Made by a program: the position numbers and the translations under genes. Shown one piece after another: positions 5,827 to 18,236 of a stretch of 64,000 nucleotides of DNA (position 1 is its first letter; every line of letters begins with the position of its first letter). Source of the DNA: an uncultured Flavobacteriales bacterium (GTDB lineage Bacteria; Bacteroidota; Bacteroidia; Flavobacteriales; BACL11); contig CAJQIZ010000031.1 in NCBI GenBank assembly GCA_905478555.1, positions 1 through 64,000 on the forward strand, in the 5' to 3' direction. The notes under the pieces were generated by a model that worked only from the letters and a program-made list of their open reading frames with translations, was not told the origin of the DNA and ran no database searches.

Positions 5827-5850
5827 AACCTCTTGAATTCTCAAGAGGTT
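5827..5850 (-). terminator. Terminator at the end of the acyl gene cluster
   Basis: AACCTCTTGA-attc-TCAAGAGGTT is a perfect 10-bp stem, flanked by A7 on one side and TTTTAAAA on the other. It follows the stop of the acyltransferase gene (5895) on the minus strand and precedes the ABC exporter start, so it closes the cluster that begins at 11108. Confidence 0.75.
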
Positions 5851-5894
5851 TTAAAAGTATCAAATATAGTGTTTCTACAACTCCTCTACCATCA

Positions 5895-7028
5895 TCATAT
5901 TGATTTTAAAAGGTTTCTTTTTCTTTTTTTATTCATCACTGATCCTATAAATGTATATCTCACAAAATACTCATATGTAATCATACTAATTGTAAATGCA
6001 CCGAGAAATACAATCAGAAATTTTAGTAAGACAGGGATAGATAACGGTAGAATAATAATCTGTAGAATAACCACAATTGGCATGTTTGAAAGATAGACCC
6101 AATAAGAAGAATCTGTTATGTATCTCAAGTATTTAGAATCTTTTAAATTAAGACAACTACAATAGCCCCACAAACCTAAAACGAGCAAATAAATAGCACT
6201 ACACGAAAATAATATTGCTCCCAACCTTATTAATAAATAATATTCTATATCTGTATTTTCAAACCAAATTTGAGGAACAATAGCCCCTATAGAAAAAAGG
6301 AACCCTAAAGACAATAAGTATTTAATATTTCTCTTTATATCATCTAATAATTGAGGAGTATTATAAGAAATACATCCAATTAAAAAGAATACAAAAAAAT
6401 GCACCAAAGAAGGGATTTCTGGAACTAAGGTTAACGGATTTTCTACTATCCACCTTTCCATAAACAACATACATAATGAAGAAATAGACACTCCAACCAA
6501 CACTAGTTTAAAAATAGAATTCACCTTTATTTTAAGAATTATTCTCTTAAACAAAATAGTAAATATATAAAAGAAAATTAAATAATATAAAAACCATAAA
6601 TGTGCAATAGGAAAGAAATTTTCAATCCCTAAAGCCCAACCACTAATATAAGATTGTTTTAAAATATCAAAGTGAAGAAAACTAAATCCAACATGATCAC
6701 TCAAACTAAATAAGGATAATACAATTGGAACTAAAACTATCAAACCTAATAGAAAAGGAAGGACAATTCTTTTAAATCTATTTAATATTATTATTGGAAC
6801 TGTACTTCTCCTCAGTTCCATAGCAAACATAAATCCTGAAATCATAAAAAATAATTCCATAACAAATAAATGATTCACAAAGATTGTAATATCAAAAAAC
6901 CAAGAGCTCTTATCATCCACTGGCCACATAGGTGCAGCGGTTATCATATAAGGAACAGAAGCATGAATAAAACATCTTATGATATTTGCAAAGTTTCTTA
7001 AGTAATCTATGTAAATTATTCTATTCAT
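5895..7028 (-). CDS. Acyltransferase 3 family integral membrane protein
   Basis: 377 residues with about ten hydrophobic segments. The N-terminus IDYLRNFANIIRCFIHASVP matches the start of acyltransferase-3 (OafA/NodX-like) proteins, although the usual catalytic His of the R-x-x-A-x-x-x-V-x-x-H pattern falls here in CFIHA. FFMISGFMFAMELRR is the conserved second-helix block. These enzymes move acetyl or other acyl groups onto sugars, lipids or peptides at the inner membrane. The ATG starts one base after the ketosynthase stop at 7029, so translation is coupled. In context it may decorate the cluster's product. Confidence 0.8.
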   Translation of the reverse strand: MNRIIYIDYLRNFANIIRCFIHASVPYMITAAPMWPVDDKSSWFFDITIFVNHLFVMELFFMISGFMFAMELRRSTVPIIILNRFKRIVLPFLLGLIVLVPIVLSLFSLSDHVGFSFLHFDILKQSYISGWALGIENFFPIAHLWFLYYLIFFYIFTILFKRIILKIKVNSIFKLVLVGVSISSLCMLFMERWIVENPLTLVPEIPSLVHFFVFFLIGCISYNTPQLLDDIKRNIKYLLSLGFLFSIGAIVPQIWFENTDIEYYLLIRLGAILFSCSAIYLLVLGLWGYCSCLNLKDSKYLRYITDSSYWVYLSNMPIVVILQIIILPLSIPVLLKFLIVFLGAFTISMITYEYFVRYTFIGSVMNKKRKRNLLKSI

Positions 7029-8024
7029 TTAATATCGAAATAAAGAGGCTCCTATTGAAAATCCAGCAGAAGTACCTAATAGTAAACATAAATCACCTCT
7101 TTTTAATTTTTTATTTTCTATGCACTGATGAATAACCAAAGGAATAGATGCTGCGACACAATTTCCATGATTCTCCAAATTACTCATTACTTTATTATTA
7201 TCTAAATTATACAGATTTTTAAATAACTCCATACCAACTTTAGAAGTTTGATGAGGAATGACAATATCTACATCCTCCATAGTATAATCTAAATCTTCAA
7301 AGAATTCATCAGTAAAAGACTTCATTTCTTTTTTTGCCAACTTTAATAACTTCATACCGTCCATCTTAAACGAATGTAATTCTTCATCATAAGGATTATC
7401 TTTAAAGAAATATTTATTACCTCCACCTTCTATTATTGTATGATAAACACCCTCAGTATATGTCTTCATTGCACCTTTCACAAAAAAAGATTCACTATTT
7501 TTATCACAACTCAATATAACTGCAACTGCTGCATCACCAAACAAAGTTAAGGTTTCAGGATTATTAGGGTTAAGTCCTTTAGATCCTATTTCTGAAGCAA
7601 CAATAATTATATTTTTATACTGATAATTATCCATCATCTTAGATGCAATATCAAAGCTGGTAACAAAACTCAAACAGGTAGTGTCAATATCTATAGTTGG
7701 AATGTTATATTTTAACCCTTCTTTTAACTCACTTTTTGTAATACTCGATTGATTGGGTAATGGGTAGTCAAAAGTAGCTCCTGCCGCGATAATTAAATCA
7801 ATATCTGAAAGTTTTAAATTTGAATTCTCCAATGCAGATTCAATGGCTCTTGCTCCCATGTATCCATTAGACTCAAAAGTAGCATGGTATCTACTTCTGA
7901 CTCCAGAATATCTCTCTGACCAACCTTTTGATAGATTGTGTTTTTCTTCTATTTCAGATGAACTAACAGATTTCGGTAGGTATTTTCCGCTAGCAATTAT
8001 CTTAATATTTCTATTTGTTTTCAT
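7029..8024 (-). CDS. Beta-ketoacyl-ACP synthase III family enzyme (FabH/OleA-like)
   Basis: 331 residues of thiolase fold. The KAS III triad is visible: Cys117 in DTTCLSF, His258 in IPHQTSKVG, Asn288 in NHGNCVAASIP. FGDAAVAVIL and the LGTSAGFSIGA tail are also typical. Housekeeping FabH would start chains from acetyl-CoA; this copy instead lies in a cluster with an adenylating enzyme, a hydrolase and an OleD-like dehydrogenase, which suggests a secondary condensation of acyl thioesters as in OleA. Which acyl groups are used cannot be read. It overlaps the F390-like gene by 14 bases (8011-8024). Confidence 0.85.
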   Translation of the reverse strand: MKTNRNIKIIASGKYLPKSVSSSEIEEKHNLSKGWSERYSGVRSRYHATFESNGYMGARAIESALENSNLKLSDIDLIIAAGATFDYPLPNQSSITKSELKEGLKYNIPTIDIDTTCLSFVTSFDIASKMMDNYQYKNIIIVASEIGSKGLNPNNPETLTLFGDAAVAVILSCDKNSESFFVKGAMKTYTEGVYHTIIEGGGNKYFFKDNPYDEELHSFKMDGMKLLKLAKKEMKSFTDEFFEDLDYTMEDVDIVIPHQTSKVGMELFKNLYNLDNNKVMSNLENHGNCVAASIPLVIHQCIENKKLKRGDLCLLLGTSAGFSIGASLFRY

Positions 8025-9294
8025 TTTTTATTCTTCTTTTTTTATCTCCAATTTTATGAGGGGAGATATCCATTTTATTAATAGTGAAATCTATAACATT
8101 ATACACTTCAAATCTTTTAACTAAAGCTGATTTTGCCAGTAAATAAGAACCTTTAAAATCACTTTCTACATATAACATTATGGTTATATTATCTTTCTGA
8201 ATAACAGCATAATCTTTAATTCTTTCATCTGCAAGAACAATTTCTCTTCTAATAATATCTGGGAAAATAGAAACCATTTTATTCTCATTATCCACCAACT
8301 CAATTACATCATCTGACCTACCTTCAATACTCTCAATTGCTAAAAAATTACTTCCACATTTACAATTTTTCTTTTCCGTAATAATATCATTCAATTCATA
8401 CCTTACAACAGGCTGACACTTTCTTAACAAGTCTGTAATAATAGGGTGAAATCTAGTTCTTTCTTCATCAATATATTTCTTTTCAATTATTAAGAAATCC
8501 TCATTAAAATGAAGAACTCCTTCTGAGCAACTGCTCGCTAAAAAACCTTCTGTACATTGATATACTTCATCCAATTTAACTTGAAATATACTCTCAAAAT
8601 AAGTTCTATCTTCATTAGTTAGTACCTCTGCAACAGAAATAACCTTTCTTGGGTTTATCTTTAATTCTCCATTCACTTTTTTCTTAGATAGTACCATCAA
8701 TACTGATGGCTGAGCAATTAAGATATCAGGTTGAAGATTATTTAATCTTTCAATATGAGAATCTATGTTTTGGAATATATCAAAAAAATTAAAACTAACT
8801 TTTCTGGACTTAGCAGATTCGTATAATTTATTATTTGCCCTAAGAAAAAACGCAATTTCAACCTCTGTAAAAGAAAAACCAATAACCCTATCTATCATAT
8901 AAGCAACCCAATTTGCTCTTTCAGTTTCGCTTACTAAAAACATTCCTCTATTTCCACTTGTCCCAGTTGAAAGACCAACCGAAACATTATTTATCATTGG
9001 AGAAAAATCTCTTGAAAGTTCTGATCTTTCAGCAATTTCAGACGCTTGTTTATAGGTTATTCCGCAAGTATTAATTGCATTAAAATTTTCCATAAATAAA
9101 GATTTATTTATGATTGGCAATTCAAAGAAATTTGAACTATAAACATTAAAGAACTCATAGAATTTTGAAGACTTAAGATTTTTAAGAAAGAAAAAAGTAT
9201 TTATTTTCTTGTACCACTTACTAGAATAAAGTCCTGTTAATTTCTCCAATTTTACTTTAATTAAGAAATATATTATTTTAATTTTAAAGAACAT
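8011..9294 (-). CDS. F390 synthetase-like adenylate-forming enzyme
   Basis: 427 residues, shorter than typical acyl-CoA ligases and like the PaaK/coenzyme-F390-synthetase branch. Motifs in order: phosphate-binding loop LSTGTSGNRG (near residue 110), YQCTEGFLAS (A5-like), and EGRSDDVIEL (A8-like). A Cys pair KNCKCGS precedes the last motif. It should activate a carboxylic acid as acyl-adenylate and perhaps pass it to a thiol, amine or hydroxyl. F390 itself is an archaeal cofactor, so that name only marks the family. It overlaps both neighbours (start inside the MBL gene end, stop inside the ketosynthase start), which points to strict co-expression. Confidence 0.75.
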   Translation of the reverse strand: MFFKIKIIYFLIKVKLEKLTGLYSSKWYKKINTFFFLKNLKSSKFYEFFNVYSSNFFELPIINKSLFMENFNAINTCGITYKQASEIAERSELSRDFSPMINNVSVGLSTGTSGNRGMFLVSETERANWVAYMIDRVIGFSFTEVEIAFFLRANNKLYESAKSRKVSFNFFDIFQNIDSHIERLNNLQPDILIAQPSVLMVLSKKKVNGELKINPRKVISVAEVLTNEDRTYFESIFQVKLDEVYQCTEGFLASSCSEGVLHFNEDFLIIEKKYIDEERTRFHPIITDLLRKCQPVVRYELNDIITEKKNCKCGSNFLAIESIEGRSDDVIELVDNENKMVSIFPDIIRREIVLADERIKDYAVIQKDNITIMLYVESDFKGSYLLAKSALVKRFEVYNVIDFTINKMDISPHKIGDKKRRIKNENK

Positions 9295-10132
9295 CCATAT
9301 CTATTTTATTTGAAACTAAATTATCGGTTGTTTTACTGCAATGAGTAGGAATAATTATTACCTCAGGATATTTTTTATGAAAAAAAGTGACCTTATTTAA
9401 ACTATCCTTATAGTCTTTCCAAGAATCAAAAAACAATCGAACTATAGGATTAGGCAACTTACCCTTTTTGTAAGCTCTCTCATCCCAGCAAGAATCTGCT
9501 ACTAAAAAATATTTCTTTTTATTAGTTTTCACTACCATTCCAATCTGCCCTGCAGCATGCCCTGGTAAATCATATATCACCACAGAATTATCCTGAAATA
9601 GATCATAACTAACTCCAAAAATATCATCTGAATATTGAGCAGCAAAATCTTCAATAAAAACCAATCTATTTTCAATATCATTAGGGATTAAATCCTTTAA
9701 TATACCTTTGGAAAAAGCAAAGAAATCACTTATTTCTTTTACTTGTTGATACGCTTTTTTAGTGCAGTAAATCGTTGCATTATTAAAATCTTTTAACCCT
9801 CCAACATGATCTGCATGAAAATGAGAAATAACAATATGTTTTATCTCAGAGGTTTTTAAACCAATTAATTTTAATTGATTTTTTATTTCATCCGATTCTG
9901 AAACTACTACCTTAGTTGCATTTGCATAAATTCTATTAGGATATTTTTCAGTAGCCTCATAAAACCTTCTTGTATATCCAGTGTCAAACAATATCCAACC
10001 TTCTTCAGGATGATGTAAAATCCCAAATAAAGCATGAAATTTTATCAATTTATTTTCATCCCCTTTCACCACATGTTGTGCACTTGCAAAACAATGTCCG
10101 GCATAGTTTAAATATAGTTTAATTTTTTTCAT
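9284..10132 (-). CDS. MBL-fold metallo-hydrolase
   Basis: Metallo-beta-lactamase fold. The zinc motif HFHADHVGG is intact, with further ligands in GHAAGQIG and ADSCWDE and a final THCSK. The order and spacing resemble quorum-quenching lactonases and thioesterase-like members. In this cluster it sits where OleB or a thioesterase would act, so release of an acyl thioester or opening of a lactone is a fair guess but is not shown. ATG 10132 (MKKIKLYLNYAGHCFA) is preferred over 10162, because the extra ten residues lie wholly inside the upstream gene. It overlaps both neighbours by 11-14 bases. Confidence 0.8.
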   Translation of the reverse strand: MKKIKLYLNYAGHCFASAQHVVKGDENKLIKFHALFGILHHPEEGWILFDTGYTRRFYEATEKYPNRIYANATKVVVSESDEIKNQLKLIGLKTSEIKHIVISHFHADHVGGLKDFNNATIYCTKKAYQQVKEISDFFAFSKGILKDLIPNDIENRLVFIEDFAAQYSDDIFGVSYDLFQDNSVVIYDLPGHAAGQIGMVVKTNKKKYFLVADSCWDERAYKKGKLPNPIVRLFFDSWKDYKDSLNKVTFFHKKYPEVIIIPTHCSKTTDNLVSNKIDMDVL

Positions 10133-11108
10133 TTTCTTTATACCAATTAATAAATTCTTCAATCGATTCTTCTGTAGTAATCACAGGATTATAGTTCAAT
10201 AAATTTTCTGCTTTCGACACATCTAAAGTGAAACTTTTAGACAAAACACCAACACTATATCTGGTAAGAGAAGGTTCTTTCTTAGTAATCCACCTTGACA
10301 CCCATTCCATAAGAAATGCAGCGAAATAAGCCACTCTGAAATTTACAGTTTTATTTACTTGTTCTTTTCCAATTCCTTTCAGAACAGAATTAATAGAAGT
10401 CCACAAACTTACCGGATTTCTATCTGTAATATTATAAGCATTATTCAATGCCTTATCAGCAGCATTCATGGATAAAATAATTGATTCTACTACATTATTA
10501 ACTGAAGTTAAATCTACTTTATTCTCCCCATTCCCAATAATTTTTAACCTCCCATCAGAATGAGCTTTTATCAATCTAGGCATAATTACAGTATCTCCTC
10601 TACCAATAATTGCTCTTGGTCTAAGAATAATATAATTCAGATTTGAATTTTCAAGTAACACCTCTGCCTCTCTTTTAGTTTTGGAATAATTATTTACAAA
10701 CCTTGTAGGAAGAGGATCCTTTTCTTTCACCATTATTCTGTCCTCACCATTATAATAAATACTTGGAGTGGAGACATAAATAAACCGTTTCACCCCTAAA
10801 ATTTTAGAAGAACTAATTATATGTTTTTGGGTTAATACATTTGCTAAATAAAAATCATCTTCCGACCCCCAAGGAGAGGATAAGGAAGCGGTATTAATAA
10901 CAATATCTATATCTTTTAAAATAGTACTTACAAATAACTTATCTTTTAAATCTCCTAAAACATATTCCACTTTAGGATTCAATATTTCACGAGATTTCCG
11001 CAAACTCCTACCAGTAGCAACTATCTTCCGCACATTAGATAATTGCACTAATCTCTCAAGAGTTCTAAATCCTAAAAAACCTGTAGCACCTGTTAATAAT
11101 ATATTCAT
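10119..11108 (-). CDS. NAD(P)-dependent epimerase/dehydrogenase, OleD/3-beta-HSD-like
   Basis: 329-residue extended short-chain dehydrogenase. The Rossmann motif GATGFLG starts at residue 7, the catalytic Ser region is YVSTPSIY, and the catalytic pair is YSKTK. RPRAIIGRGD fits the 3-beta-hydroxysteroid dehydrogenase/OleD branch rather than sugar epimerases. OleD reduces a 2-alkyl-3-ketoacid formed by OleA, and the OleA-like gene is three genes downstream. The gene heads a five-gene run in which every junction overlaps or abuts. A TATTTTTG -7 element and the palindromic site at 11135 lie directly upstream. Confidence 0.8.
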   Translation of the reverse strand: MNILLTGATGFLGFRTLERLVQLSNVRKIVATGRSLRKSREILNPKVEYVLGDLKDKLFVSTILKDIDIVINTASLSSPWGSEDDFYLANVLTQKHIISSSKILGVKRFIYVSTPSIYYNGEDRIMVKEKDPLPTRFVNNYSKTKREAEVLLENSNLNYIILRPRAIIGRGDTVIMPRLIKAHSDGRLKIIGNGENKVDLTSVNNVVESIILSMNAADKALNNAYNITDRNPVSLWTSINSVLKGIGKEQVNKTVNFRVAYFAAFLMEWVSRWITKKEPSLTRYSVGVLSKSFTLDVSKAENLLNYNPVITTEESIEEFINWYKENEKN

Positions 11109-11112
11109 GTTA

Positions 11113-11120
11113 CAAAAATA
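11113..11120 (-). promoter_or_regulatory. -7 promoter element of the five-gene acyl operon
   Basis: On the minus strand this reads TATTTTTG, a match to the Bacteroidota TAnnTTTG element, 4 bases before the ATG at 11108. Transcription would start at or very near the start codon. The palindrome at 11141-11153 falls about 20 bases upstream of it, where an upstream promoter element or a regulator would lie. Confidence 0.5.
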
Positions 11121-11134
11121 AAGTGTTAGTATTT

Positions 11135-11157
11135 ATTTGTTATGCTAAGCATAGTAT
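11135..11157. promoter_or_regulatory. Palindromic operator-like site, copy 1
   Basis: A 23-base block identical to the one at 14289-14311. Its core is the 13-base palindrome TATGCT-A-AGCATA (11141-11153). It lies in the 57-base gap between the exporter stop and the dehydrogenase start, next to the -7 element. The symmetry and promoter position suggest binding of a dimeric regulator (inference); no regulator gene is in the cluster. Confidence 0.6.
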
Positions 11158-11165
11158 ATTTCATT

Positions 11166-13238
11166 CTACAAATATTTACGGATGATCATTGGTAAATAAA
11201 TCAAATCAAAAATTAAAGCCAGTATGGCAGATATTATAGTAAGTAGACTCAATTGATAAACAGATTTAAAATCGGAAATTAATAATGGAAGTAGACTAAC
11301 TATTACTATAATAGTAGTTTTTACCACTGCCCGTGCTGTTGTACTTAACGATTCATTTATAGCTTCTGATTTAGATAAACCTCTTTTCATATTAAACCTA
11401 AAGGAACTTAGAATATGAATAGAATCGTCAACAACAAGACCAAATATAATAGCAAATATAAATGCATTGGATAAACTCAAATAAAAACCTGTAAAGGACA
11501 TTATACCTATACAAACTAATATCGGAAATATATTAGGAATTAAAGCAATGAAAAAATATCGGAAATTAAAATCATTCAATATAAAAAAGAGTAGCCCTAT
11601 TATTAATATAGCAATAAAAAGTCCATATAGAATTTCATAAGTTAGTATGTTACTAACTTGGTCAAACAGATATCCTCTACCTCCTACTTTCAAATTCAGA
11701 TTTAGCTCTTTTGCTTTATCCTTTATTCTAATAACCTTTATAAGACTTTTATTTGCCCCAATATCCTGCATTCTAGATCTAATTCTATACCCATCTTTTG
11801 TGAGTTTATGATACAAATTTTTACTGATTTTATCTTTATTTTGAAATATCCCATCAATAGAAAAATCTAGAAAGAAACCCTGAGAAATAATATACTTTTC
11901 TAATTGAATTATTTTATCTATATCAATATCTTCATTATTTTCTAAATTAAAAACTACAGGTTTATATCCACCAAAATCATCATTAAAAAACTGCATCTCT
12001 TTATATACTACTGACTTCTTATTTAACTCGTCCGTAGCATAATTATTCACTTCATAGTTATAAACTCCAAAAGCAGCCAATCCTGTCATAATAATCAACA
12101 GCACAGTAAGTTTCCAATTGTATTTTAAATGAATTATTTTATAAAGAAAATCATTTAACTTCTCATCTCGTTTAGAATTCAAAGATCCTATTTTTTCAAT
12201 TTTATCCACACAAATAGCATAAAAAATAAGAACAATAAATAAGGAAACTAAAACACCTATGGTAGTAGCAATTCCGAATCTTAAAATGGGAAGCACATCT
12301 GAAAAACAAAAACTCAGAAACCCTACAGAAGTAGTGAAAGAAGTTAATGCAACTGGAATACCAACTTTACGAATTTGATTAACAAAATATTCTTTTTTAT
12401 TCTTGGGATTAAATCGGTTATTCAGCAAATGCATCATATCCGAAATACAAACAATAAAGATAATTGCTGGCATTATTATCATTATTAATTCTATCCCTCC
12501 AAATAAAAGATGAGAAAAATAAAAACTAATAGTTACACTAAACAGAACGCTCAGCAAGGTCAACACTACAAATCTTAAATTTGAAGTGAAAAACCAAAGC
12601 ACCAAACAACATAAAATTGCACTTAATAAAATTACAAATAACAACTCCTCCTTCACCTTACTTTGTATATATAATTCATTTCTGGTTTGCCCTGAAACAT
12701 ATACTTTTTTAGAAGAGTCCTCAAAAGAATTTTTTAATATTTCAATAAATTGCTGATTTTGTTGATGGTTAAGACTATCTTTTGTTTCCACTAAAAAAAG
12801 TGTTTTTCTAAAATCAGAAGACAAATACGAACTCTTCTTTTCCCTAATTCTTTCCAAATATTTTTCATATCCTATACTGTTTTTAAGATTAAGAATATTA
12901 TAAGATATCGGCATCAAACCTGTGTTAATAACTCTTTTATCATTGAAAATACTTCTTATTTCCTTCACATATTCATTTTCTTCTAACTGTTCTTGTAAAG
13001 TATTAAGAGCTAAAAACTCATCAAATGAAATGGAATCAGGATACTCTAATCCTACTAAAAACAAGTTTTTATCATTGTTTGATTTGGAATAGTCTACCTC
13101 AACATCTTCTGCATATTTCAACATCCTTTCTGATTCAGAATAAATATTGGTGTTTTGCAATTGAGTAATAGATAAAATGAACAAGAATACAATAAAACTA
13201 AATATAACATATTTATATTTCCAGATAAATGATATCAT
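11166..13238 (-). CDS. RND/MMPL family exporter
   Basis: 690 residues with the RND duplication: helix 1, a periplasmic domain, then five or six helices, repeated once. Each half carries an acidic residue and His in the fourth helix, CISDMMHLLNN and GLVVDDSIHILSS, the latter being the MMPL-type proton-relay pattern. Length fits two-domain lipid or hopanoid exporters (MmpL/HpnN group) more than the 1000-residue AcrB group. Placed between the cupin gene (3-base gap) and the acyl operon, it most likely exports the cluster's lipid-like product from the inner membrane. Substrate is inferred from context only. Confidence 0.85.
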   Translation of the reverse strand: MISFIWKYKYVIFSFIVFLFILSITQLQNTNIYSESERMLKYAEDVEVDYSKSNNDKNLFLVGLEYPDSISFDEFLALNTLQEQLEENEYVKEIRSIFNDKRVINTGLMPISYNILNLKNSIGYEKYLERIREKKSSYLSSDFRKTLFLVETKDSLNHQQNQQFIEILKNSFEDSSKKVYVSGQTRNELYIQSKVKEELLFVILLSAILCCLVLWFFTSNLRFVVLTLLSVLFSVTISFYFSHLLFGGIELIMIIMPAIIFIVCISDMMHLLNNRFNPKNKKEYFVNQIRKVGIPVALTSFTTSVGFLSFCFSDVLPILRFGIATTIGVLVSLFIVLIFYAICVDKIEKIGSLNSKRDEKLNDFLYKIIHLKYNWKLTVLLIIMTGLAAFGVYNYEVNNYATDELNKKSVVYKEMQFFNDDFGGYKPVVFNLENNEDIDIDKIIQLEKYIISQGFFLDFSIDGIFQNKDKISKNLYHKLTKDGYRIRSRMQDIGANKSLIKVIRIKDKAKELNLNLKVGGRGYLFDQVSNILTYEILYGLFIAILIIGLLFFILNDFNFRYFFIALIPNIFPILVCIGIMSFTGFYLSLSNAFIFAIIFGLVVDDSIHILSSFRFNMKRGLSKSEAINESLSTTARAVVKTTIIVIVSLLPLLISDFKSVYQLSLLTIISAILALIFDLIYLPMIIRKYL

Positions 13239-13241
13239 ATT

Positions 13242-14282
13242 CTATTTTTTATTGTTCATATATTTAAATATTCTAGCAAAATCTGTTCTGTTTTTTGTTG
13301 CCATCCAAATAGGGGGATTTACAGAAAGAATAGTAAGTAATGTCTGCATAAAACTCATCTTAAAGCTATCAGATGGACTAAACCATCTAAAACCAACACC
13401 TATTGAATTGTTTAGGTTTGTAACATGATGCCACCAAGAAGGAGGATTAAATAAAACATCTCCCGATTTTAGTTCACACTCCCAAGTTTCAAGATATTTT
13501 GCATTTGGAAAAGTTTTAAAATCAGGATTATCGGGATTAAACATGCTATGAAAATAAGGTGTTCTCGTAATAGGTGGATCTAAAATAATATCATTTTCTG
13601 GAGGATATAAATACCAATGTTTATTGCCGTATACTTGAGTAAATAAATTATGTTCACTTGCAGCATGTAAACTTGTCTTTGTCCCCTTTCCACCTATAAA
13701 TACTTGAAATGTTTTCCCAGAACTAATTGTGTTTCTCATATTGTACAGCCATTTCCAATCAAAACCCTCTATAAGCTCTGGATGGTCATAAAGTATTCTA
13801 TTAAACCGACTATATTTTGAAGAATCCCCTTCTTTCATGGCATTTAAAACATCTTTTAAAGTCGTTTCTTCTACATTATAATTCACATCTGTCATGTCCT
13901 GTGTAGAAGCATTAAATATAGACACCTTATCATCACAATAATTTTCTAACAACCAATCGGGGGACCACTTTTTCACACACTCCCAATCTTTTGCTTTTCC
14001 CTCCATCACAACAGGAATACCTTTAGAGATATAATTCTTTTTAAGATCATAATCTGAAATATTTCTTACTCTATCAACCTTTTTTAAAATACCAATTACT
14101 TTTTTTTCTTGAAAGTTAGCAGTAGCTAAAGAGGAAACTCTTTTTCTTTGATTAATAAATCTATTGGATGGAACTTGATTCCCAAATAAATGATCTGCAA
14201 ATCTCCAAAACTGATATTCAGCAAGATGTTTATGTTTTATTTCAGTCAATGATTTAATTATTTTAACAAAAATAAAAAACAT
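13242..14282 (-). CDS. Cupin/JmjC-type oxygenase-like protein with HxA instead of HxD
   Basis: 346 residues. Residues 190-300 are a cupin_8/JmjC core like that of FIH-type hydroxylases: FQVFIGGKG, then LHAASEHNLFTQVYGNKHW, LYPP, SGDVLFNPPSWWHHVTNL and VGFRWF. The first iron His is 206 and the distal His is in WWHH (285/286). The position normally held by Asp (HxD) is Ala208. Lys221 matches the 2-oxoglutarate-binding Lys. Loss of the carboxylate is the hallmark of Fe/2OG halogenases, or may mean lost catalysis. It heads the two-gene unit with the exporter and has its own copy of the palindromic site 7 bases before the ATG. Confidence 0.8.
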   Translation of the reverse strand: MFFIFVKIIKSLTEIKHKHLAEYQFWRFADHLFGNQVPSNRFINQRKRVSSLATANFQEKKVIGILKKVDRVRNISDYDLKKNYISKGIPVVMEGKAKDWECVKKWSPDWLLENYCDDKVSIFNASTQDMTDVNYNVEETTLKDVLNAMKEGDSSKYSRFNRILYDHPELIEGFDWKWLYNMRNTISSGKTFQVFIGGKGTKTSLHAASEHNLFTQVYGNKHWYLYPPENDIILDPPITRTPYFHSMFNPDNPDFKTFPNAKYLETWECELKSGDVLFNPPSWWHHVTNLNNSIGVGFRWFSPSDSFKMSFMQTLLTILSVNPPIWMATKNRTDFARIFKYMNNKK

Positions 14283-14288
14283 AATTTA

Positions 14289-14311
14289 ATTTGTTATGCT
14301 AAGCATAGTAT
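14289..14311. promoter_or_regulatory. Palindromic operator-like site, copy 2
   Basis: Same 23 bases as at 11135-11157, in the same orientation relative to the downstream gene. The 13-base palindrome TATGCTAAGCATA is at 14295-14307, and the cupin ATG follows 7 bases after the block. Its closeness to the start would let a bound protein block transcription or initiation. I found no further copy in the window by eye. Confidence 0.6.
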
Positions 14312-14969: not shown

Positions 14970-15824
14970 TTATCGAAAGTAAGTATTTAAGAAATCCATA
15001 CCTTTTTCTAAACCCGCATGATAATCTTGTGTTAAATCTTCTACACTAGTTCCTACTACATTTGATTTTAAAAAATTATCAGGAAATATCTGTAATATCT
15101 CTAAATTTTCATGTTTTTCTGTTAAGAAATCTACCGATTCATTATACTCAATATCTTCTTTAAAAAAGACATCTCTTACTTTATGGTTATTCTTCCACCA
15201 ATATCCAGCAACTAATCCCAGGTAACTTAATCCGCTAACTTTATAACCTAAAGGGTTTGGCCTTATAACAATTATTTTAGTTGCCCCAAAATTAGCAGCC
15301 GATTTAGCTGGTATTGAATCAGACCATGCTCCATCCATAAAACTTACACCATCAATTTCGCAAGAGCCTTTAGTAAAGAAAGGTAATGAAGAAGTTGCTT
15401 GCAAACATTTATAGAAATTCTTTTTATTAGGTTCTAAATAAACAGCTTCTCCATCTGCTAAATTTGTAGCTACAATATAAAATTGTTTATCTTCTGTAGA
15501 TGATTTAATGGATTGAAAATCTATAGGATTATTTTTTTTGGCATATTTTGTTAAAAAATTTAAATCCATATATCCATGTTCCGAAAGAGCATGCTTATAA
15601 CTTAAAAATTTCTCATTTACAGACACATCTTTCGATAATGAAAAATAGGATTTGTATTGACTAGATACATAATAAGACAAACACATTGCTCCACTAGAAA
15701 CACCGATATAAATATCAAAAGGATTAAATTTATTTATTAGAAATGCATCTAAAACCCCAGCCGAAAAAACTGATTTAAATCCACCTCCCTCAATTACTAA
15801 TGCTATTTTTTCTATATCTTTCAT
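14970..15824 (-). CDS. Patatin-like phospholipase family protein
   Basis: 284 residues from ATG 15824. Patatin hallmarks: the oxyanion loop EGGGFKSVFSAGVL near residue 12, the nucleophile elbow GVSSGA, and the catalytic Asp in FMDGAWSDSIP. It should hydrolyse acyl esters of lipids with a Ser-Asp dyad; the closest general type is the RssA/YjjU group of cytosolic or membrane-associated hydrolases. A start at 15920 would add 32 Cys- and Leu-rich residues that precede the usual patatin start, so I reject it. The neighbour on the opposite strand is a kinase-like gene. Confidence 0.85.
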   Translation of the reverse strand: MKDIEKIALVIEGGGFKSVFSAGVLDAFLINKFNPFDIYIGVSSGAMCLSYYVSSQYKSYFSLSKDVSVNEKFLSYKHALSEHGYMDLNFLTKYAKKNNPIDFQSIKSSTEDKQFYIVATNLADGEAVYLEPNKKNFYKCLQATSSLPFFTKGSCEIDGVSFMDGAWSDSIPAKSAANFGATKIIVIRPNPLGYKVSGLSYLGLVAGYWWKNNHKVRDVFFKEDIEYNESVDFLTEKHENLEILQIFPDNFLKSNVVGTSVEDLTQDYHAGLEKGMDFLNTYFR

Positions 15825-16071
15825 ATTATAATTAAAAAATAAAAGTAAGACTAATAAATAGAATAAACAATTACATTTGTAGAATAATGTATAATAAACT
15901 CTTCTATTATTAAGATTCATTGTTATTGTTGTTTCTAGCTAATTAATAATTATGAAGGATTAAAAAATCTGGAATATCAATTTGGAAAAACTAACACCCA
16001 ATAACAGGAAAGGGATTAAATGCAGAACATTTTAGATGGTCAGCCGCTCACCTAATTCTATTAATATCACA

Positions 16072-17156: not shown

Positions 17157-18236
17157 TTATTCACACATGAAGTCACTAATTAAGGAGTGAAAATGGTGTA
17201 CCCCTTTTTCCATTGATGGAGAGAACCTACCATGATTATAAAATCTAGAGGCAACTCCTTTTTGTACTTTTTGCACCACTTCTTCATCTTCTAATTCTAC
17301 CTTGTCTAAATCTGCTCCGGCTCCCAAATCCAATTTACTTTCGTCCCATACATATGATTTAAATATTACTTTTGTTTTATTTGTAGATACTGGATGTATA
17401 ATATTAACAGAAAGTCCCCAAGGATAGAAATTGAGCATTATATTCGGGAAAATCCAGAAATAATAGGCAGCAATATTTTTTCCATAATCTTTTGAATCTT
17501 TTGGTAAATCAAAACAATCCTCCCCTTCTTTACCATAACCAATCTGCAGATTAGAGTAATTAAAAGTTTCTACATCATAATTGTTATAATCCAAAACAGA
17601 CGTTAAATCTTTATGTATAAATGGAATATGAAAACCCTCCAAATAATTATCGCAATACAAAGCCCAATTTGCATCTACCATATATGTTTTCGATAGATCT
17701 TGCTTATATTTAAAATCTGAAATTGGCATCCACCCCACTCTTTCATCAACATCTATTAGTAGTTCTTGAAAATTAATTTCTGGATGTAGAGAGGTGAAAA
17801 TAAACTGATTCCATTTGGAAGAAGGAACCTTGGTTAAATGATCCTGCTGAGAAGGGAAATTTTTCATTCCCTCTGATTTTGGCATAAATAGAAACTTTCC
17901 ACAACTATCAAATTGTTTCCCATGATAAGCACAAACAATATTCTTTTTTACTACACAAGGTTCGTCAATCAGAATATTACCCCTGTGTGTACACACATTA
18001 GAATAACAATTTATCAAACCCTCTTTCTTTATTAAGAAAAGTGGCTCTTCAATAAAGTTCTCTATAAAAGAAAATGGAAAAGCACTTCTATCTGTTTTCA
18101 AATTGCTTTCATCCGTTATTAGCTGCCAACTTTTTGAAAAAATACCTTCCTTCAATTTCTCAAACATCTCATCAGATGAGTAGAAATCTGCTGTGAGTGT
18201 AGATGCTTCTGTTATATCTTTATTTATTTTTTTCAT
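17157..18236 (-). CDS. Rieske-type oxygenase, catalytic alpha subunit
   Basis: 359 residues. The Rieske [2Fe-2S] ligands are CTHRG (C-x-H) and CAYHG (C-x-x-H), 17 residues apart within residues 80-110. The mononuclear iron site is seen as DNYLEGFHIPFIH (E..H...H). Length and motifs fit ring-hydroxylating or choline/carnitine-monooxygenase-like enzymes. No reductase or ferredoxin gene is next to it, so electrons must come from elsewhere, and the substrate is not assignable. It stands alone on the minus strand, divergent from the M43 protease. Confidence 0.85.
   Translation of the reverse strand: MKKINKDITEASTLTADFYSSDEMFEKLKEGIFSKSWQLITDESNLKTDRSAFPFSFIENFIEEPLFLIKKEGLINCYSNVCTHRGNILIDEPCVVKKNIVCAYHGKQFDSCGKFLFMPKSEGMKNFPSQQDHLTKVPSSKWNQFIFTSLHPEINFQELLIDVDERVGWMPISDFKYKQDLSKTYMVDANWALYCDNYLEGFHIPFIHKDLTSVLDYNNYDVETFNYSNLQIGYGKEGEDCFDLPKDSKDYGKNIAAYYFWIFPNIMLNFYPWGLSVNIIHPVSTNKTKVIFKSYVWDESKLDLGAGADLDKVELEDEEVVQKVQKGVASRFYNHGRFSPSMEKGVHHFHSLISDFMCE

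Follow-up and report, generated by a model that had tools for sequence, protein, structure and literature searches.

Four genes, encoding an OleD-like reductase, an MBL-fold hydrolase, an F390 synthetase-related ligase, and a KAS III ketosynthase, form a conserved cassette that recurs across at least four bacterial phyla. In the window (i.e., the whole 64,000-nucleotide stretch analyzed here), which derives from a marine-type Bacteroidota genome (1.79 Mb in 44 contigs; 99% complete), the cassette lies within a set of seven genes. As the best explanation of the region, we propose, with moderate confidence, that a specialized lipid-type pathway is built around this cassette and that the cassette has been widely exchanged. 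The observations that support such a pathway include that the accessory genes surrounding the cassette in other genomes are of lipid or tailoring types and that a promoter element of the window genes is shared with a desaturase operon and a phospholipid synthesis block. The cassette includes no dedicated acyl carrier protein, which counts against this proposal. The enzyme families suggest a lipid-like product.

Gene layout and spread of the cassette

An open reading frame check of the window located all seven genes on the minus strand, and Pfam and NCBIfam assignments agree with the families and positions given in the initial annotation (Table 1). They are transcribed in the order cupin, MMPL, OleD-like, MBL, F390-related, KAS III, and AT3. 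The set had been regarded as a single seven-gene cluster. The five genes from OleD-like to AT3 do overlap or abut their neighbors, but the cupin and MMPL genes have their own promoter, and the set is therefore two adjacent operons. Gaps of 57 and 3 bases separate MMPL from the OleD-like and cupin genes, respectively, and the set ends, ahead of an MsbA-like ABC gene, in an inverted repeat followed by a run of T. The MBL open reading frame spans 9284-10162; alignment with L153, a locus from another genus of the same family, places the probable true start at the ATG at 10132. The cupin gene has its probable start at the TTG at 14249. Upstream of the cupin operon, on the same strand, lies a gene for a patatin-like phospholipase with a DUF6363 domain (14970-15920). 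A Rieske gene at 17157-18236 was considered and left out of the cluster because it is just 21-27% like the Rieske genes flanking the cassette elsewhere.

Table 1. Genes and sequence elements of the two operons, in window coordinates
Feature	Position	Strand	Basis
AT3-type membrane acyltransferase	5895..7028	-	Pfam PF01757; orthologues beside cassette in L075 and L153
KAS III, cassette-type ketosynthase (331 aa; C117/H258/N288)	7029..8024	-	Pfam/NCBIfam, tree, motifs
F390 synthetase-related protein (TIGR02304), PaaK-fold adenylating ligase	8011..9294	-	NCBIfam score, model, motifs
MBL-fold hydrolase, AttM/AiiA lactonase-like (HxHxDH, H202, D223; longer-ORF numbering)	9284..10132	-	Pfam/NCBIfam, motifs
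OleD-like NAD(P)-dependent reductase, 3beta-HSD/SDR type (Y141xxxK145)	10119..11108	-	Pfam/NCBIfam, motifs
MMPL/HAE3-type RND transporter, 3 bases after cupin gene	11166..13238	-	Pfam/NCBIfam
Cupin_8/JmjC-like Fe(II)/2OG enzyme (H206-x-A208 replacing HxD)	13242..14282	-	Pfam, alignments, orthologues in L075 and L153
Composite promoter element TATGCTTAGCATA-N20-TATTTTTG, before OleD-like gene	11113..11153	-	Pattern search
Composite promoter element TATGCTTAGCATA-N20-TATTTTTG, before cupin gene	14267..14307	-	Pattern search
Intrinsic-terminator-like inverted repeat 3' of AT3 gene	5829..5860	-	Read from sequence

An alignment of six ligase sequences was scanned against 84,980 species genomes, and the best 80 of 267 relatives were kept. 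All four cassette genes lie on one strand within 6 kb at 70 of these 80 loci, a linkage figure that is partly conditioned on the ligase because the ligase was the search bait. Only two arrangements occur among the 70 complete loci, namely, OleD-MBL-F390-KSIII (n = 37) and KSIII-OleD-MBL-F390 (n = 33). The same neighborhoods were recovered in a separate search of 296 Bacteroidota genomes with the curated family TIGR02304. Gene order is thus strongly conserved, and the original view of an acyl condensation cluster with lipid-type tailoring genes is supported by the cassette.

Hosts of the cassette come from Bacteroidota, Bacillota, Campylobacterota, and Pseudomonadota and include Flavobacteriales, Cytophagales, Balneolaceae, Paenibacillus, Bacillus, Lysinibacillus, Sulfuricurvum, and Sulfurospirillum, a list that annotated plasmids extend to Pontibacillus, Ketogulonicigenium, and Paraburkholderia. 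The cassette is rare in the order to which the window belongs (otherwise 2 of 246 genomes). Its core is present in 672 of 5,426 complete Escherichia coli genomes (12%), where it occupies the interval from narI to the tRNA-Tyr/purU region, accompanied by a PAP2 gene and by genes for a fatty acid hydroxylase and a desaturase; in strain LF82, for example, the four-gene core and these three genes occupy L133:12001-18882, from narI to tRNA-Tyr. Accessory genes near the cassette elsewhere encode fatty acid hydroxylases, desaturases, sulfotransferases, Rieske proteins, PAP2 proteins, and an ATP-grasp protein with an acetyltransferase-like partner. Neither this occurrence in several phyla and in E. 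coli nor the family-wide composite promoter described below figured in the initial annotation. Such a fixed cassette, found in four or more phyla and in roughly one in eight complete E. coli genomes, points to a common metabolite, no description of which was found in the literature searched (largely non-subscription journals), and tractable hosts such as Bacillus open the cassette to direct test. The F390-like gene reported in work on ladderanes (PMC2649909) was considered as a parallel and rejected, as it sits in a different kind of cluster.

The condensing enzyme and the proposed pathway

The catalytic motifs of the four cassette enzymes are intact, and all four look functional. The KAS III triad was correctly identified at the outset and is invariant in all 67 cassette KAS III proteins. 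The metal ligands of the hydrolase are likewise invariant (62 MBLs), and its score against the AHL lactonase (AttM/AiiA) equivalog is 82 bits, below the cutoff of 390. Tyr141 and Lys145 of the reductase are conserved in 58 of 59 proteins. The ligase is a full-length member of TIGR02304 (415.9 bits; cutoff, 251.9), in agreement with the F390-like adenylating enzyme originally named, and its motifs GxSxGT(S/T)G, YQCTEG, D288, R291, and K418 are invariant or nearly so among 90 homologues. A structure model from a 40-sequence alignment (pLDDT, 90.5) has PaaK-like ligases as its best PDB matches (E values of 1e-17 to 1e-20). The family score, the adenylation motifs, and the predicted fold together indicate a PaaK-like adenylate-forming enzyme; no assigned function for TIGR02304 was found in the papers searched.

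By sequence, the window KAS III is not the housekeeping FabH. It reaches 181 bits against the FabH model TIGR00747 (cutoff, 292), and a separate FabH, on another contig of the same genome, scores 363 bits. Neither of the two outcomes that the initial annotation named as fatal to the cluster idea, a housekeeping ketosynthase and an unconserved gene order, was therefore obtained. Its closest PDB relatives are MxnB (189 bits) and CorB (183 bits), followed by FabH (140 bits). In a maximum likelihood tree, a check proposed in the initial annotation, the 67 cassette ketosynthases form one group (support, 94/85) that joins MxnB/CorB (100/100) apart from FabH, as a sister and not nested within them; this tree includes no OleA sequence, a family search of 99 Bacteroidota genomes having returned none and its control having matched nowhere, and OleA was judged by profile scores and the glutamate column only. 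OleA and PpyS need a glutamate base (in OleA, E117 from the partner subunit, followed by Pro; in PpyS, E105), and the same column holds Val in MxnB and CorB (PMC4578411, PMC7064751). The cassette ketosynthases have Ile (n = 41) or Leu (n = 26) at this position, and the next Pro is invariant. They therefore share the Cys-His-Asn triad with OleA but not its base, and they share with MxnB/CorB both the closest sequence kinship and a hydrophobic residue at that column. The window protein scores only 93 bits against NF006720 (PRK09258), which we take to be the OleA-type model, versus 302 bits against PRK07204.

These results bear on the OleA-type reading of the earlier analysis, in which the cassette would carry out an Ole-pathway condensation. 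The reductase does match the OleD equivalogs NF042422 and NF042423 (183 and 190 bits), and the combination of ketosynthase, reductase, and adenylating enzyme follows the logic of OleA/D/C and of lipstatin (PMC7064751). However, both reductase scores are far below the cutoff of 580, the ligase is of the PaaK type and not the OleC type, OleB is absent, the OleA-type profile is outscored, and, because no cassette ketosynthase has the glutamate base, an OleA-type mechanism is unsupported. We judge this reading unlikely. The OleA likeness holds for the overall pathway logic only (condense, reduce, and adenylate), and the condensing step is probably MxnB/CorB-like or FabH-like.

If it were FabH-like, the step could be one of decarboxylative priming, in which the ligase would supply an unusual starter acyl-CoA and the ketosynthase would couple this to malonyl-ACP; the normal fatty acid synthase would then extend the chain, and AT3 would attach the unusual fatty acid to a surface glycan or lipid. 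The FabH-like fold and triad, the missing glutamate base, and the presence of an AT3 family member all fit this scheme, and aromatic or short acids are frequent substrates of PaaK-type ligases. It seems improbable nonetheless, as the ketosynthase group is nearer to MxnB/CorB than to FabH and the scheme has no need of a separate OleD-like reductase or MBL hydrolase. A degradative or detoxifying module, in which the ligase would activate an exogenous acid for breakdown by the other enzymes, is far less credible still: PaaK and MBL lactonases also occur in catabolism and some plasmids carry the cassette, but KAS III enzymes build C-C bonds, and the neighboring genes are for tailoring and acyl transfer and not for beta-oxidation.

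In the lipid-type pathway that we favor, the ligase would activate a carboxylic acid as an acyl-AMP, with CoA, a carrier protein, or a nucleophile as the acceptor. KAS III would join an acyl group to a second activated acyl group; given that the OleA-type base is missing, this second group may be a beta-ketoacyl or a malonyl thioester. The keto group thus formed would be reduced by the OleD-like enzyme, and the MBL hydrolase may cleave a thioester or lactone for product release or editing. AT3 and the HxA cupin would tailor the product in the organism of the window, and MMPL may carry it across the membrane.

Accessory genes and the composite promoter

In two other genomes, too, the AT3 and cupin genes adjoin the cassette. 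In L153, OleD-MBL-F390-KSIII-AT3-cupin are contiguous on one strand, with an AT3 orthologue 49% identical to that of the window; in L075, AT3 (67% identical) and the cupin (75%) lie beside the cassette in divergent orientation. The MMPL gene, which had been counted as the exporter of the set, is not a conserved part of it. Its Pfam domains score 64.7 bits (cutoff, 20.5), with the HAE3 subfamily model under its own cutoff. Of the 52 family genomes, 26 have relatives, and those inspected lie in a different context. In G442, MMPL and the cassette are on different contigs. Export by MMPL is thus a guess from position. The MMPL orthologues at L211:5618-9659, L212:6680-10706, and L213:6071-10101 lie between SDR-like and DNA photolyase-like genes (assigned by Pfam in L211 and by homology in the others).

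The cupin, initially called an oxygenase, does belong to a Cupin_8/JmjC-like Fe(II)/2OG family; it aligns with JMJD5 and FIH and keeps the proximal His206, the distal His285, and the 2OG Lys221. The facial-triad Asp, the usual iron ligand, is replaced by Ala in the cupins of the window, L075, and L153, which makes plain hydroxylation doubtful. Eighteen further close Bacteroidota homologues carry HxA (14), HxE (3), or HxS (1), and five distant homologues carry HxD. Some homologues form tandem arrays next to paired KAS III genes and sulfotransferase genes; at L191:4282-13897, for example, a cluster of five HxA/HxE-type cupin_8 genes adjoins a pair of KAS III genes and one for a sulfotransferase. 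Ala or Gly at the triad carboxylate, with chloride filling the vacant site, is the hallmark of Fe/2OG halogenases (PMC5350257). The window cupin, with Ala for Asp and two retained His residues, has this pattern and may be a halogenase; altered hydroxylation or lost activity would be the alternatives, given the HxE members within the cupin group. A structure model from a two-sequence alignment (pLDDT, 32) was unusable. A bolder proposal, which we consider unlikely, is that these cupins form an unrecognized JmjC/cupin_8-type Fe(II)/2OG halogenase lineage widespread in Bacteroidota, which with the cassette would yield a new halogenated two-chain lipid or signal, and that in E. coli, Bacillus, and Paenibacillus the core cassette produces a family of metabolites not yet described. 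If the HxA cupins are halogenases, they would represent a new branch of a small, useful enzyme class.

The 21-base site reported before both gene groups was confirmed as exact copies at 11137-11157 and 14291-14311, with about 0.01 chance matches expected when up to three mismatches are allowed. Its sequence context indicates that the site is half of a composite promoter, in which the palindrome TATGCNNNGCATA is followed after 20 bases by TAnnTTTG, the consensus of the Bacteroidota -7 box. The spacing was exactly 20 bases, on one strand only, in 13 of 13 sites first examined, and the composite TATGCNNNGCATA-N20-TAnnTTTG occurs in 42 of 52 family genomes (1 to 6 copies each; reversed control, 0 matches). 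Further copies are found at G000:C1:5389, C2:764, and C9:46328. Across the family, the element also stands ahead of a fatty acid desaturase operon, Asp/Arg hydroxylase genes, a phospholipid synthesis block (CDP-alcohol transferase/cytidylyltransferase/acyltransferase), and other genes, and it offers a route to a regulator of membrane lipid genes in these Bacteroidota. With its center 27 bases upstream of the -7 box, the palindrome covers the usual -33 region, a placement that fits the binding of an activator; the two window copies would drive expression. The OleD-like ATG lies about 4 bases past the -7 box in both the window (11108-11120) and L153 (2376-2387), so that transcripts would be leaderless if the box is used.

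A MerR-type regulator with a B12-binding_2 domain (LitR/CarH-like) is encoded at L153:8632-9528, convergent with the cupin gene. Light control through such a regulator was considered and dropped because the genome of the window has no homologue at an E value of ≤1e-8 and no palindrome occurs close to the MMPL-photolyase loci.

Comparison with known systems

The cupin and the SyrB2-type halogenases come from different 2OG subfamilies. What they have in common is Ala in place of the Asp ligand, a feature of these halogenases (PMC5350257). JMJD5 and FIH share its family, proximal and distal His, and 2OG Lys, but they retain the Asp. The PaaK-like proteins BT_0428, PaaK1/2, NatL2, AjiA1, and ClxA are the best fold matches of the ligase, but identities are only 14-18%, and the substrate pocket is not comparable.

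The cassette resembles the Ole pathway (OleA/B/C/D) and the lipstatin Lst operon in combining a KAS III, a 3beta-HSD-type reductase, and an adenylating enzyme in one operon. It differs from both in having a PaaK-type ligase for OleC/LstC and an MBL hydrolase for OleB, in its ketosynthase without the OleA Glu, and in a reductase far under the OleD equivalog cutoff. MxnB and CorB, the chain-fusing KAS III enzymes of myxopyronin and corallopyronin, are the nearest solved structures and have the same triad and no OleA-type Glu; theirs, however, is the last step of large PKS pathways and forms an alpha-pyrone, whereas the ketosynthase described here is accompanied by no PKS but by a reductase, a hydrolase, and a ligase.
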